Shown one piece after another: positions 12,794 through 18,992 of a stretch of 64,000 nucleotides of DNA; the first letter of the stretch is position 1; each line of letters opens with the position of its first letter. The DNA comes from Lachnospiraceae bacterium P6A3. GTDB taxonomy: Bacteria; Bacillota; Clostridia; Lachnospirales; Lachnospiraceae. A program made the translations under genes and the position numbers. The notes beneath the pieces were generated by a model that had not been told where the DNA came from, searched no databases, and saw only the letters and a program-made list of their open reading frames with translations. The stretch is taken from the NCBI GenBank assembly GCA_000702085.1, contig KL370861.1, forward strand, positions 808,911 through 872,910, in the 5' to 3' direction.

Positions 12794-14215
12794 ATGAAGA
12801 ATTATAACGAAAAAGAAGAAGAGAAAGATATAATAACCGTCAATTCGGAAGGAAGGATCCGTACAAAAAACAAGAATCCTAAATTTGACAATCATTATTT
12901 CAAGTGGGGATTAACTTTCTTCATTACTTTCTTGTGTTGTATCATTTCGATCTATATTGTTTTCTATCACGACGAATTCAAAGCAACCATCAAACATATC
13001 AATAAAATTCTTTCCCCCGTATATGTAGGATTTATAATTGCCTACTTGTTCAGTCCGCTTCTGAATATGCTTGAGACAAAGGTAATGTATCCTTTGTATA
13101 AGAAAATCAAGTTTATAAAAGATGAAAACAAGATGCCTCTGGCAAGGGCTACATCTATTATCGTCATTATCATATTAACCATATTCCTGATCTATGCCAT
13201 CGTTCAGATAGCTATCAAACAGGTTATACCTTCACTTATCAGCATCGTATCCAACATAAACATTTACCTTGATAATATTACCGCTTGGTTTGACAGATTC
13301 CTGGAAGACAATCCTTCGCTTAAAGCGTTTGTAATGGATGATCTGAACAGATTCTCGGACGATATATCAACCTGGGTAACAGAAAACTTCAAGACTCTTA
13401 CCGGTAATGTAATCAAATCACTTTCACAGGGATTCCTGGCATTTGTAAAAAAGCTTTGGAATTTCATGATCGGATTTATCATTTCGATCTATGTTCTCTG
13501 GAGCAAAGAGCGTCATGTTGCCAGATGTAAAAAGATAGTCTATGCGGTATTTTCACGAGAAACAGCAAATGCTTTTGTTGAAGCAATGAGATATACCCAC
13601 AGAACCTTCATCGGTTTCTTTTTCGGAAAGATCATTGATTCCATCATCATCGGTCTGATCTGTTTTATCGGATGTACTCTGATGCAGATTCCTTATGCGA
13701 TACTTATCAGTATTATCGTCGGTGTAACGAATATAATTCCTTTCTTCGGACCTTATTTCGGAGCGATACCTTCAACAATCCTGATATTTGCATTCGACCC
13801 TTTGCATCCCGGTAAAGCACTTGCTTTTGTTTTGTTTATCCTGGCACTTCAGCAGTTTGACGGCAACGTTCTAGGCCCAAGGATTCTTTCCACATCAACC
13901 GGACTTACCGGATTCTGGATCATTTTCTCCATAACATTATTCGGCGGACTGTTCGGTGTTATAGGTATGGTCATAGGTGTCCCTGTATTTGCGGTTATAT
14001 ATGCAGGACTTAAGCAGCTTGGCAGAAACAGGCTGAAAAAGAAGGGATTCCCCTACAAGACTTCAGACTATATAGAATTAGGTACGATTAACGAAGACGG
14101 TTCCGTAAATCCTATTCCTCCCATCGAAAAGAAACCGGAAAAGAAAGGATTTATTTCTACCGTAATCGATAATTTCAAAACAAATAAGAATAACAGAAAA
14201 GACAAGAAGAAATAA
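12794..14215 (+). CDS. AI-2E family transporter (permease)
   Basis: 473 residues with about eight membrane segments and charged ends. The pattern (PVYVGFIIAYLFSPLLNMLE early, IPYAILISIIVGVTNIIPFFGPYFGA and GVIGMVIGVPVFAVIY late) is that of the AI-2E transporter superfamily, whose members export AI-2 or exchange ions; substrate unknown. It has a Lys-rich cytoplasmic tail. The deacylase fusion starts 6 bases after its stop, so they are likely cotranscribed. Confidence 0.88.
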   Translation: MKNYNEKEEEKDIITVNSEGRIRTKNKNPKFDNHYFKWGLTFFITFLCCIISIYIVFYHDEFKATIKHINKILSPVYVGFIIAYLFSPLLNMLETKVMYPLYKKIKFIKDENKMPLARATSIIVIIILTIFLIYAIVQIAIKQVIPSLISIVSNINIYLDNITAWFDRFLEDNPSLKAFVMDDLNRFSDDISTWVTENFKTLTGNVIKSLSQGFLAFVKKLWNFMIGFIISIYVLWSKERHVARCKKIVYAVFSRETANAFVEAMRYTHRTFIGFFFGKIIDSIIIGLICFIGCTLMQIPYAILISIIVGVTNIIPFFGPYFGAIPSTILIFAFDPLHPGKALAFVLFILALQQFDGNVLGPRILSTSTGLTGFWIIFSITLFGGLFGVIGMVIGVPVFAVIYAGLKQLGRNRLKKKGFPYKTSDYIELGTINEDGSVNPIPPIEKKPEKKGFISTVIDNFKTNKNNRKDKKK

Positions 14216-14221
14216 AGAGTA

Positions 14222-15742
14222 ATGAAGTTAGTAATACAAAGAGTTTTAAATGCATCGGTATCGATCATTGAAACTTCGGAAAATAAAACAACGAGTGAAA
14301 GAATATCCGGATTCATCGGAAAAGGATTCCTGGTTCTGTGCGGTATCGAAGAAAAAGATACTTTCGAAATCGCCGATAAAATGATCAAGAAACTTCTTGG
14401 TCTCAGGATATTTGAAGACGAAAACGGTAAGACTAATCTTGACCTAAAATCCGTTAACGGAGAACTTTTGATTGTTTCGCAGTTTACACTCTGTGCAGAT
14501 TGCAGTCATGGTAACAGACCTTCATTTATTAAAGCTGCAAAGCCGGATAAGGCTATACCTATATATGAATATATAGTAGAAGAGTGCCGCAAAGCCGGTT
14601 TTATGACCGAAACAGGAGAGTTCGGCGCCGATATGAGAGTGGACCTGACCAATGACGGTCCCTTTACCATTGTTCTTGATTCCGAAGATATTAAAACAGG
14701 TTCCGAGGACTCCGGCAATAAGATCATGGAACATCTGTCCAAAGAAACCGCTGCGGATGTTTTAAAAACCTGTTTCAAACTTCAGGGTGCAGATGATTTC
14801 GGTGAAGCGATAAATGAAGTTATTGTAGATATCCGAAGAATATGCGATGCAAAGCATGTATGTCTCCTTCTTGTAGATAAGGCTAATCGTAAATGTTCAA
14901 TGCTCGCCCATTCTTTTATGGACGATGTCATTGAAGATCCGATCAATTGGCATGAAGAAGATCAATTCAGACTTGTTGAAAGCTGGAATGAAATCGTTTC
15001 AGATAAAACTCTGATAATAAACAATGTAGCCGAACTTCAAAGTATCAACGCAAAGAATCCCGCATGGTATAAATCACTTACAAAAGCCCGTGTCTATAAT
15101 CTTGTGCTTTGTCCCCTCAGTTTTGATGGAGAGCTTATAGGATATATATGGGCAACTAATTTTGAAGTTGATAATACAAACCGTATTAAAGATACACTTG
15201 AGCTTACAACCTTTTTCCTTTCTTCGGAAATATCCAGATTCAGATTGTTGAACAGACTGCATATGCTCAGCACTGTGGATCTTCTTACCGGAGCATTTAA
15301 TCGTAATGCCATGAATTCCAGAATTGATTCCATGGCAAATGATAAAGATCCGACAATTCATCCGCTTGGGGTTATATTCGCAGATCTTAACGGTCTTAAG
15401 AGAGTAAATGATACCAAGGGACATGAAGCAGGAGATATTCTGCTAAAGAATGCGGCTCTTTTGCTTCAGGAAGTATTTGTCGGTTACGAAATATACAGAG
15501 CAGGCGGAGATGAATTTTTTATTCTACTCAAAGATGCCGGTGAAAAAGAAGTGCTTGATAAAGAAGCTGAACTAAGAAAAGCTATATCTGCTAATGGCAA
15601 GATTAGCTTTGCAATAGGTCACAGCCATGTTGCAAGTACCAAAGAAGTATTGAAAGCTTTTCATATGGCAGATGAGTCTATGTATGCCGATAAGAGAAAA
15701 TTCTACATGGAGCATAAAGAGTTAGACCAAAGACGCGGATAA
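14222..15742 (+). CDS. dtd: D-aminoacyl-tRNA deacylase / GAF / GGDEF fusion
   Basis: One uninterrupted frame of 506 residues. Residues 1-153 are a full Dtd, which removes D-amino acids from t[23 protein letters not shown] (86-93) and the Gly-Pro motif NDGPFT (144-149; most homologues read GPVT). Residues about 178-340 look like a GAF sensor. Residues about 348-500 are a diguanylate cyclase domain with the metal Asp in FADLN (388) and an intact GGDEF (428-432); the upstream RxxD inhibitory site is absent. No internal start has a good ribosome site. It follows the AI-2E gene by 6 bases and is probably coupled to it. Confidence 0.9.
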
Positions 15743-15763: not shown

Positions 15764-16306
15764 ATGAGAGAGTATAAGAATATAGTTCTGATCGGAATGC
15801 CGGGAGTCGGTAAAAGTACAGCCGGAGTAATTGCTGCCAAGACTCTCGGCCTTAAATTTGAAGATACCGATCTGATGATACAGTCCAAAGAACACAGATT
15901 GCTCAGACAGATAATCGCTGATGACGGTGTCGAAGGATTCCTCAGAATTGAAGAAAATGTCCTTAAAAACATAGATCAGAAGGGATATCTGATAGCTACA
16001 GGCGGTAGCGCCGTATATGGCTTCGAAGGCATGGAACACCTGCGTGAGAATTCACTCATAATTTACCTGCATTTAGGCCTTGATGAACTTACTCACAGAC
16101 TTGGTAATCTGCAAAACCGAGGCGTCGTTTTAAAGCCGGGACAAACCCTTGCGAATATCTACGAGGAACGTTTACCGCTTTACAGACGGTTTGCCGATAT
16201 TGAAATAGATGAAACCGATTTAGACTTAGAGGCTACAGTTGCACAAATATGCGGTAGGGTGTCTATATATAACTATTCGCAAAATGCGGATTTAACGAAT
16301 AGTTAG
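15764..16306 (+). CDS. Shikimate kinase-like protein
   Basis: 180-residue P-loop protein of the AroK fold. Walker A GMPGVGKST, the DTD pair that contacts shikimate, an FLRIEE version of the FRxxE motif and the late ERLPLY are visible. The usual GGG after the central strand is GGSAV and the lid RPLL is replaced by NRGVVLKPG. Phosphorylation of shikimate is plausible, given aroB in the window, but a related small substrate is possible. There is no clear ribosome site. Confidence 0.7.
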   Translation: MREYKNIVLIGMPGVGKSTAGVIAAKTLGLKFEDTDLMIQSKEHRLLRQIIADDGVEGFLRIEENVLKNIDQKGYLIATGGSAVYGFEGMEHLRENSLIIYLHLGLDELTHRLGNLQNRGVVLKPGQTLANIYEERLPLYRRFADIEIDETDLDLEATVAQICGRVSIYNYSQNADLTNS

Positions 16307-16387: not shown

Positions 16388-17554
16388 ATGAAATTTGCAA
16401 ACAGACTTGATAATTTTGGTGCAGAGATTTTTGCGGCTCTGAACGAAAAGAAAATCGCATGTGAAGCCAAAGGTCAAAAGATCTATAACTTCTCTGTAGG
16501 TACACCTGATTTTCCCGTACCGGATCATATTAAGAATGCTTTGATCGTAGCTGCTCAGGATCCTGCAAACTGGAAATATTCACTCAGAGACATGCCTGAA
16601 ATGCTTGAGGCTGTTTGTGCATACTTTAAAAAGCGTTATGACGTAGACGGAATTACTCCGGATATGGTTATGAGCTGTTACGGAACTCAGGAGGGCTGCG
16701 GACATCTTGCTCTGGCTCTTCTTAACAAAGGTGACACGATTCTTCTTCCGGATCCTTGTTATCCCGTATTTCAGGCAGGAACATTCCTTGCTGAAGCAAC
16801 TCCTTACTACTACCCTCTTGTAGCCGAAAATAACTTCCTTCCGGATGTAAATTCCATTCCTGAGGATGTTGCTAAGAAGGCTAAGGTGATGATCGTATCA
16901 CTTCCCGCAAATCCCGTAGGAAGTGTTGCTCGTGAAGGTATTTATGATGAAATAATCGCTTGGGCGAAAAAGAATGATGTCATCATCGTTCATGACAACG
17001 CTTATAGCGACATTATCTACGACGGAAATGTTGGAAATTCATTCCTTAAGTATGATGGCGCTCTTGATGTAGGTGTTGAATTCTTCTCATTATCCAAGTC
17101 ATATGACGTTACAGGAGCCAGAATAAGCTTCCTTGTAGGCCGTAAAGACATCGTAGCAGCCGTTAAGAAGCTCAGAAGTCAGATTGACTTCGGTATGTTT
17201 ATTCCCATCCAAAAAGCCGCTATTGCAGCTCTTACGGGTCCTATGGACTCTGTTAAAGAACAGAATAAAGAATATCAGAGAAGACGTGATGCTCTTTGCG
17301 GAGGAGCAAGAAAGATCGGCTGGAATATTCCCGATGCTAAGGGTTCAATGTTCGTATGGGCACCTGTTCCCGAAGGACACGGAAATTCAATGGAGTTTTG
17401 TATGGAACTTCTTGAGAAAACCGGAGTTCTGTGCACACCAGGTTCATCATTCGGACCTTCAGGTGAAGGCTATGTAAGAATGGCTCTTGTTGCAACCGTT
17501 CCCGTTATCGAAGAAGCTCTTAAAGCGGTTGATAACAGCGGAATACTTAAGTAA
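16388..17554 (+). CDS. Class I/II PLP-dependent aminotransferase
   Basis: 388 residues, fold-type I. The PLP lysine is in SLSKSYDVTGAR, with the cofactor-contact segment HDNAYSDI and the substrate Arg region GEGYVRMAL near the end. It resembles LL-diaminopimelate and aspartate aminotransferases of Clostridia, but the substrate cannot be fixed from sequence. AGAGG lies 9 bases before the ATG. The 81-base gap upstream contains an imperfect TCAATA/TATTGA dyad (about 16339-16357). A bidirectional terminator follows. Confidence 0.85.
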   Translation: MKFANRLDNFGAEIFAALNEKKIACEAKGQKIYNFSVGTPDFPVPDHIKNALIVAAQDPANWKYSLRDMPEMLEAVCAYFKKRYDVDGITPDMVMSCYGTQEGCGHLALALLNKGDTILLPDPCYPVFQAGTFLAEATPYYYPLVAENNFLPDVNSIPEDVAKKAKVMIVSLPANPVGSVAREGIYDEIIAWAKKNDVIIVHDNAYSDIIYDGNVGNSFLKYDGALDVGVEFFSLSKSYDVTGARISFLVGRKDIVAAVKKLRSQIDFGMFIPIQKAAIAALTGPMDSVKEQNKEYQRRRDALCGGARKIGWNIPDAKGSMFVWAPVPEGHGNSMEFCMELLEKTGVLCTPGSSFGPSGEGYVRMALVATVPVIEEALKAVDNSGILK

Positions 17555-17630: not shown

Positions 17631-18992
17631 TTATCTGCTTCCTCTTCTGTCCTGACCGGATTTTACATAGAAATTACGCTTATCTTCGTACATTCTCTGA
17701 TCTGCAGTTTTTGCAAGTTCTGTGATACTTAGATCAGGAAATTCGTAATGAGGAGCGTAACCTTTTGACATGGACAGAGATATATTCAATTCTCCTTTCC
17801 ATTTGTTAATGGATCTGTCCAGAGTATTCTTACACTTCTCAAGTGTTTTTTCGTCGCAGCATATAATGGATACAAATTCATCGCCGCCTGTTCTGAATAC
17901 ATTTCCGTATTCCCTGAAACAGTTCATCAGACAGGTTGCCGCACCTTTGATAAGTTCGTCACCGGCTTCATGCCCAAGTGTATCGTTTGCTTTCTTCAGG
18001 CCGTTAATGTCGACAGCTACATATACCAAATTGCCGCACATTTTATCTTCTTTTCCGATGTCTTTCAGTTTCTCTTCATAGGCTCTTCTGTTATAACAGC
18101 CCGTAAGTTTATCCAAATTGGATATCTTCCATAATTCGTGATTTGTTTCACGGATTTTAAGAAGCATATTCGCAAACAGAGATATAAGCCCCGAAATACA
18201 TAAGAAAATTATTACAACAACAAGGAAATTTTTATATGAATACCAGCCTTCATCGGGACAGAGGGATAATTCCCAGGTGAGGTTATACATATTGAATTGA
18301 TATACTATTTCATCTTTAACGGGAGTTTCGCTCTCGGTTATCAGATGTTTTGTATTATGGGAATCGATATAACTGAGTCTGTAATTCATTCCCATATCTG
18401 TAAAAGCATCAAATTTCAGTGCTTCAATTAGGCTTTCAGGGTTACAGCTTAATGAAACAATACCCCAGAAATTTGAACCGTTAACATTATTAATATACAG
18501 AGGGTTTGCCGCGGTCATACCGATACCATTATTTTTTATATCGTAGTAATTGGTAAGAACTGTATCACCGCTTTCAAAAGCATCTTTTGACTGGACATTG
18601 CCGGGCTTTGTAACATCAAGAAGATCAAAACCAATCAAGTCTTCATGACCGCTGTAAGGATATATATCGGTTATGACTCCATCGGGAGCTACTGCGATAT
18701 ACTCAAGCTTTATTCCGGTCTGATTATATACATCATCATAAATGACACCTGCCATTGCACCAAAGAACTCGGTGCCCCCGTTATGATCCTGAATAAGAGC
18801 ATTCATAACTTCGGCCCGGAGAATGACGTTATTTACCGTAGTTGCAATGTGATCCGCTTTATCTTTGGCAATATACTGATAGATGTTTCTTGAATCAAGG
18901 ATCTCGCTTCGGACATACAAAGAATATGCTCCCATGAGCAATGCGAATGTGATGAAATATATTAAACTTAAGATTAATATTTTCTTTTTCAC
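17631..18992 (-). CDS. Diguanylate cyclase with CHASE-type sensor
   Basis: 453 residues: membrane segment at about 7-27, an extracytoplasmic sensor with the CHASE-like stretch IYPYSGHEDLIGFDLL, a second membrane segment near 258-280, then a GGDEF domain with the intact motif TGGDEF and metal Asp in VAVDING. The RxxD feedback site is missing. It should synthesise cyclic di-GMP in response to an external ligand. The C-terminus (DKRNFY then DRRG) resembles that of the deacylase fusion, suggesting a shared GGDEF ancestry. It forms the promoter-distal end of the minus-strand block. Confidence 0.9.
   Translation of the reverse strand: MKKKILILSLIYFITFALLMGAYSLYVRSEILDSRNIYQYIAKDKADHIATTVNNVILRAEVMNALIQDHNGGTEFFGAMAGVIYDDVYNQTGIKLEYIAVAPDGVITDIYPYSGHEDLIGFDLLDVTKPGNVQSKDAFESGDTVLTNYYDIKNNGIGMTAANPLYINNVNGSNFWGIVSLSCNPESLIEALKFDAFTDMGMNYRLSYIDSHNTKHLITESETPVKDEIVYQFNMYNLTWELSLCPDEGWYSYKNFLVVVIIFLCISGLISLFANMLLKIRETNHELWKISNLDKLTGCYNRRAYEEKLKDIGKEDKMCGNLVYVAVDINGLKKANDTLGHEAGDELIKGAATCLMNCFREYGNVFRTGGDEFVSIICCDEKTLEKCKNTLDRSINKWKGELNISLSMSKGYAPHYEFPDLSITELAKTADQRMYEDKRNFYVKSGQDRRGSR

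Follow-up and report, generated by a model that had tools for sequence, protein, structure and literature searches.

D-aminoacyl-tRNA deacylase (Dtd) acts on D-aminoacyl-tRNAs and also on Gly-tRNA(Ala) (PMC5409826). The enzyme has been described as a symmetric dimer whose interface harbours the active sites, each built from the SQFTL motif of one subunit and the NxGP(V/F)T motif of the other, with a cross-subunit Gly-cisPro, and these two motifs characterise Dtd (PMC3845328). Diguanylate cyclase activity requires two GGDEF domains together (PMC4937426), and Hypr enzymes carry Ser at the base-recognising position of the domain (PMC6456294). A search of the open-access literature by title and start of abstract found no protein joining tRNA proofreading to c-di-GMP, although databases may list the architecture; PMC5424206, in the passages considered, does not concern a Dtd-GGDEF fusion. 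The window analysed here, the whole stretch of 64,000 nucleotides, contains one gene in which the two activities are predicted to be combined. Neither half is unusual in itself; what is unusual is that the two are joined. The gene is a single open reading frame on the plus strand (14222-15742, ATG to TAA) that encodes 506 amino acids without internal stops. The features of the locus are as follows.

12794-14215, plus strand: AI-2E family transporter, the upstream neighbour, ending 6 bases 5′ of the fusion gene (PF01594, E 2.3e-45; neighbour conserved)
14222-15742, plus strand: whole fusion gene, 506 amino acids, in the order Dtd, linker, GAF-like domain, helix, GGDEF (open reading frame and translation; full-length matches in six other genomes of the genus)
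14222-14680, plus strand: Dtd (D-aminoacyl-tRNA deacylase) domain, residues 1-153 (PF02580, TIGR00256, fold match to 1jke)
14477-14500, plus strand: SQFTLCAD active-site motif, residues 86-93 (translation)
14657-14662, plus strand: Gly-Pro of the NxGP(V/F)T motif, residues 146-147 (translation; retained in all seven fusions)
14681-14725, plus strand: variable linker, residues 154-168, modelled with low confidence (alignment, dN, pLDDT, spacing)
14726-15241, plus strand: GAF-like domain, residues 169-340, its start placed where the PAS-GAF-GGDEF parents continue past their PAS-like domain (weak profile, model, spacing)
15167-15274, plus strand: long predicted helix linking the GAF-like and GGDEF domains, residues 316-351 (model secondary structure)
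15272-15700, plus strand: GGDEF domain, residues 351-493 (PF00990)
15503-15517, plus strand: GGDEF motif, residues 428-432 (translation, position)
15764-16306, plus strand: shikimate-kinase-family protein, the downstream neighbour (PF01202, E 2.4e-30; neighbour in most loci reaching that far)
16388-17554, plus strand: PLP-dependent aminotransferase, the second downstream neighbour (NCBIfam LL-diaminopimelate aminotransferase-like, below cut-off; locus comparison)

Among NCBIfam models, the product of 15764-16306 scores best with the homoserine kinase model NF040667 (147.5 bits, cut-off 197); the shikimate kinase models rank behind it, and all are below cut-off. Beyond the aminotransferase gene, on the minus strand (17631-18992), lies the gene for another GGDEF protein, whose N-terminal part is long; relatives with and without the fusion have a counterpart at a similar location.

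A full-length open fusion was found in 7 of the 31 genomes of the genus (G000, from which the window comes, G017, G026, G014, G015, G013 and G001), at 58-100% identity, and four of the seven are in differently named public records, all of them Lachnospiraceae metagenome assemblies. Seventeen other genomes have a stand-alone Dtd; two of these copies (G012, G020) are cut by contig ends, and the partial Dtds were not used. In the other 7 of the 31 there was no Dtd among the matches listed (to E 7e-16), reflecting either absence or incomplete assembly. The initial annotation had read Dtd as running without a stop into a GAF-like domain and a GGDEF domain, and this was borne out by one open frame, by profile matches at both ends and by the seven genomes. 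A frameshift or assembly error was looked for at the joint and none was found, all seven genomes being open across it, and a split gene pair was looked for in relatives, with the result that 0 of 16 stand-alone dtd loci contained a GAF-GGDEF match of at least 90 bits in the stretches fetched. The initial annotation had also stated that there is no credible internal start. In fact an in-frame ATG exists at codon 169, but it is common only to the window gene and G026 among the seven fusions, the codon being CTT in G014, G015 and G017, and in G014 and G015 no ATG, GTG or TTG occurs between the GPFT motif of Dtd and the ETA of the GAF part. A start at codon 169 was therefore ruled out as a conserved feature by the absence of the ATG in G014, G015 and G017, so that the statement holds for a conserved start and fails as to the presence of an ATG. 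A scan for a set of ribosome-binding motifs found none of them 5′ of codon 169; since none was found 5′ of codon 1 in any of the seven fusions either, the scan is uninformative and only the non-conservation of the ATG counts. One possible restart with a ribosome-binding motif, a GTG at codon 213, was seen in G017 alone. An artefact (a frameshift, a misassembly or two genes wrongly joined) has the in-frame ATG in its favour, but this explanation was rejected as extremely improbable because seven genomes, four of them in differently named records, share the architecture and the ATG is not conserved. G015 also has, beside its own fusion, a 4.2-kb contig (G015:C125, L078) with a stand-alone dtd locus very like that of G016; this copy is probably contamination of the assembly and was left out of the conservation count but kept in the Dtd and neighbour-gene trees.

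The Dtd domain is complete. Residues 2-153 match the whole Pfam Tyr_Deacylase profile PF02580 (positions 1-144 of 144; E 2.4e-52, 177.6 bits against a cut-off of 25), the NCBIfam D-aminoacyl-tRNA deacylase model TIGR00256 scores 166.2 against a cut-off of 101.5, and the fold matches E. coli 1jke with a TMt of 0.88. SQFTLCAD and the Gly-Pro lie at residues 86-93 and 146-147, as had been proposed. SQFTL (residues 86-90) and NDGPFT (residues 144-149) are identical in all seven fusions, which also retain S86-L90, A92 and D93, invariant in 15 stand-alone Dtd rows.

The catalytic C-terminal part is equally clear by profile: PF00990 covers residues 351-493 (E 8.5e-21, 74.8 bits against a cut-off of 23.8), NCBIfam TIGR00254 scores 76.6 against 37.4, and the intact GGDEF motif that had been claimed stands at residues 428-432. 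Residues 419-422, which we take from spacing to be the position of the inhibitory RxxD site, read FVGY, in agreement with the earlier reading that this site is absent. N396 and D405 are nine residues apart, like the base-recognising pair 339/348 of GacA (mapping by spacing); as D405 is Asp and not Ser, c-di-GMP rather than cGAMP is the expected product of the GGDEF half, judging from these residues. The genome of 2.98 Mb (G000) gave 28 matches to the fusion protein including itself, mostly to the GGDEF part only, and 19 EAL matches. The assignment of the middle domain is less firm. Its Pfam matches fall below the curated cut-offs (GAF_2, E 0.0014, 19.3 bits against 28.6; GAF, E 0.0025, 18.8 against 22.4), and the domain is called GAF-like here because the Pfam GAF cut-off was missed. 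The structure model of the fusion protein (a monomer, mean pLDDT 82, pTM 0.49) has a mixed alpha/beta region at residues 174-340, and the structural matches of the model include the GAF-GGDEF protein Dcsbis. The proposed GAF-like domain is thus supported by the modelled fold and the Dcsbis match, but not by a Pfam score above cut-off. The pLDDT is below 50 at residues 159-169 (the linker) and at residues 65-70, 92-94 and 96-102 inside the Dtd half.

With the fusion protein as query (E 1e-95), matches were found in 2 of 397 genomes of the family and 1 of 334 genera, both genomes belonging to this genus. A Dtd query matched 128 of 150 genomes in the family sample, 126 of them in frames of at most 223 codons, the exceptions being G000 (508) and G001 (526). 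The class sample agreed, with matches in 123 of 148 genomes and only G000 above 266 codons, a frame of 266 belonging to G870. In the phylum sample (368 of 398 genomes matching), the longest three frames among the matches listed were of 681, 304 and 258 codons, with the surplus length 5′ of Dtd, as if an upstream gene had been read out of frame. The statement that Dtd is normally a stand-alone protein was thus upheld, and a general habit of Dtd fusions was not seen in the family and class samples or, among the matches listed, in the phylum sample. The fusion itself is confirmed; its architecture is unusual, maintained and, in the samples searched, confined to one Lachnospiraceae genus. No PF02580 Dtd was found in 22 of the 150 family genomes, including 12 of the 126 with a completeness of 90% or more and a contamination of 5% or less.

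Pairwise dN/dS, calculated for 6 of the 21 fusion pairs, was low throughout (Dtd 0.05-0.12, GAF 0.05-0.17, GGDEF 0.05-0.13); the values are rough, as several dS are near or above 1, and the GAF value of G001-G013 was not computable. By these estimates both halves are under purifying selection. In the 15-residue linker dN was higher in five of the six pairs (0.16-0.45), with 0.03 in G014-G015. Forty-six of the 50 Dtd positions that are invariant in the 15 stand-alone Dtds are identical in all seven fusions, as are 51 of the 55 GAF-GGDEF positions invariant in 17 PAS-type rows (described below). The exceptions all fall outside SQFTL, NDGPFT, the ND-GD pair and GGDEF.

Other members of the family to which the GAF-GGDEF part of the fusion belongs carry, ahead of this stretch, an N-terminal domain of another kind, about 120 residues long. 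A model of this parental domain (19 sequences, pLDDT 79.6, pTM 0.73) weakly matched the fold of PAS/LOV proteins (best E 1.9e-4, TMq at most 0.55 among the matches listed), and all 50 rows among the matches listed in the fold search were PAS, LOV or blue-light sensor proteins by title. There was no Pfam PAS match in the domain, which is PAS-like by fold only. The fusions have Dtd where the parents have this domain, with homology setting in at one and the same point, immediately ahead of the LSxETAxxVLxTC stretch. In the GAF-GGDEF tree the fusion is nested in the PAS-type rows, the seven fusions grouping with four PAS-type rows at 96/90; a smaller tree supports a set of 12 rows at 98/95 (the trees do not include L044, which is the same record as the gene of G029). 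A PAS-GAF-GGDEF protein appears to have had its PAS-like domain swapped for Dtd. The PAS-GAF-GGDEF starts at L093:415 onward (G003) and in L094 (G022) lie within far longer frames, of 1334 and 1233 codons, and the printed part of the G003 frame contains, by eye, a further GGDEF-like plus EAL-like stretch.

Comparison of the loci gave a matching picture. The gene order is transporter, dtd, shikimate-kinase-family gene, aminotransferase, and dtd has the same neighbours with or without the cassette. In G006, G016 and G029 a stop codon closes dtd, and 32, 74 and 99 bases further on, respectively, comes the start of the shikimate-kinase-family gene, whereas in the fusion genomes a 1-kb GAF-GGDEF piece lies between the two genes. 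The bases directly 5′ of the downstream gene are similar in several genomes, fusion and non-fusion alike, and in G022, G023 and G027 other sequence lies directly behind a stand-alone dtd. Among the matches listed, a second PAS-type copy of at least 50% identity was found in none of the fusion genomes and once each in G023 and G029, which have stand-alone Dtd; possibly the GAF-GGDEF cassette was moved rather than copied. As read from the alignments, a whole Dtd gene is shown to be joined in frame to a GAF-GGDEF part, replacing the PAS-like domain, with both sets of motifs intact.

The trees disagree on the number of such events. In the GAF-GGDEF tree the seven fusions lie on one side (90/82 with 33 rows; 77/82 with 22 of those rows), although placing either fusion group with near PAS-type rows was not rejected (p 0.166 and 0.15). 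In the Dtd tree, by contrast, the fusions fall in two separate groups and a single clade of the seven was rejected (p 0.003), while for a clade that also took in G006, G016 and the second copy of G015 the p was 0.048. The tree of the neighbouring gene likewise rejected the seven as one clade (p 1.4e-9). In the rpoB tree, which contained six fusion genomes and 15 of 16 rows (G007, whose branch of 10 most likely reflects a misread frame, was dropped, and the clade test on the tree that had included this row, p 0.0005, was disregarded), G001, G013 and the stand-alone G006 grouped at 100/99 and joined the group of the window at 85/87. This topology fits one gain and one loss, but a grouping of G001, G013 and G006 together with G023 and G029 was not rejected (p 0.172). 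There may have been one gain, with a loss in the line of G006 and G016, or two.

The spacing of the domains bears on whether the halves are coupled. In the parents, 27 residues separate the last PAS strand motif from the GAF motif in 24 of 24 distinct rows with both motifs (19 parent rows and five further distinct ones, some near copies; the distant L002, L095 and L096 gave no motif pair). In the fusions, the distance from the GPFT motif of Dtd to the GAF motif is 34 residues in five and 50 in two. The difference between 27 and 34 means little, as the landmarks differ; the point is that the parents are invariant and the fusions differ by 16. This difference, together with a linker pLDDT below 50, suggests on alignment and model that Dtd was joined by a loose, flexible tether rather than as a wired sensor. 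Functional coupling of the halves is slightly disfavoured by the spacing data. The initial annotation had proposed that clearance of D-aminoacyl-tRNA is coupled to cyclic dinucleotide synthesis; this was no more than partly supported, as the fixed parental spacing is lost and the linker is variable and of low confidence.

The reading we somewhat favour, at a little better than even, is a bifunctional protein in which a Dtd dimer carries a GAF-controlled diguanylate cyclase. As the fusion is the only Dtd found by genome search in its own genome, the Dtd half would still do the Dtd work of the cell, clearing D-aminoacyl-tRNAs and Gly-tRNA(Ala). The symmetric Dtd dimer would hold two GAF-GGDEF arms together and so provide a permanent partner for the two GGDEF domains, which have to face each other; this role was presumably filled by the lost PAS-like domain. 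In this reading, c-di-GMP synthesis would be controlled by the GAF-like domain through the long helix at residues 316-351. Dtd would then be a loose, flexible anchor; it may also bring the synthesis of c-di-GMP close to tRNA and the ribosome, and the fusion would tie the amounts of both enzymes one to one. Several points count against this reading: the model is a monomer with a pTM of 0.49 and does not predict the dimer arrangement, the GAF match is under the Pfam cut-off, and the sister lineage (G006, G016) has a stand-alone Dtd and no cassette, so that the joint is dispensable. Moreover, the idea of a dimer platform predicts nothing that this sequence could have contradicted.

A different explanation gives the role of sensor to Dtd itself: on binding or turning over D-aminoacyl-tRNA or Gly-tRNA(Ala), the dimer would shift and switch the cyclase, so that c-di-GMP would report translation errors. 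Dtd does occupy the place of the sensor domain of the parents, the motif residues are intact in both enzymes, the joint is retained in seven genomes, and D-amino acids and dtd have been linked with biofilm phenotypes of Bacillus subtilis (PMC4238804). However, the fixed PAS-GAF register has been lost, with two lengths among the fusions, the linker is variable and of low confidence, and between Dtd and GGDEF there is already another domain, the GAF-like one. Ligand-bound Dtd also superimposes on the apo form (PMC3845328), so that little movement seems available to transmit, and we consider a sensing Dtd unlikely. Influence in the opposite direction, with the GAF-like domain or c-di-GMP acting on Dtd so that ligand or messenger level tunes proofreading, is very unlikely: the parts share one polypeptide and the GAF-like domain adjoins Dtd, but linker and spacing vary and the Dtd motifs have no fusion-specific change. 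Finally, the joint may have arisen by chance and bring no benefit, a lost stop codon letting a truncated GAF-GGDEF gene be read through while the halves work alone. Such an origin would agree with its absence from the near relatives G006 and G016, the unconserved linkers and the lack of any sign of coupling; it is nevertheless unlikely, as the frame is open in seven genomes forming two separate groups on the Dtd tree, dN/dS is low in both halves, and neither a stop nor a conserved restart lies between them.

That a translation quality-control enzyme has been installed as the input domain of an enzyme making a second messenger, the load of D-aminoacyl-tRNA or Gly-tRNA(Ala) being read out as c-di-GMP, is distinctly unlikely, but if true it would be a direct link from misacylation to lifestyle control, and if the two fusion groups arose separately, as the Dtd tree has it, selection would have favoured such a link on two occasions. 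Communication between the halves would mean that bacteria can sense mischarged tRNA; without it, the case would illustrate how a metabolic enzyme that forms homodimers can take over from a sensor domain in bringing a diguanylate cyclase together as a dimer.

In archaeal threonyl-tRNA synthetase the DTD-like domain edits the product of its own enzyme, whereas in the fusion the partner is a signalling enzyme instead. Both are cases of a Dtd-fold domain within a larger protein (PMC5424206, a reference title). The whole domain, the SQFTL and NDGPFT motifs and the fold are shared with the Dtds of E. coli (1jke) and P. falciparum (3knf/4nbi). Compared to the E. coli enzyme, the Dtd of the fusion is longer by about nine residues close to the first strand, as is the stand-alone Dtd of G006, and compared to the stand-alone Dtds of the family and class samples it is followed by 350 further residues. 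With the GAF-GGDEF diguanylate cyclases Dcsbis, PA2771 and 4zmu the fusion has in common a GAF-like domain, a connecting helix and a catalytic GGDEF domain; it differs from them in its N-terminal Dtd, its weakly detectable GAF and the absence of the RxxD of the I-site, at the position presumed above. In the PAS-GAF-GGDEF proteins found in Lachnospiraceae and further Clostridia (L042, L043 and L092 among them), the GAF-GGDEF part is 52-56% identical to that of the fusion in the nearest; those proteins have a PAS-like N-terminal domain at fixed spacing, and the fusion has Dtd instead.
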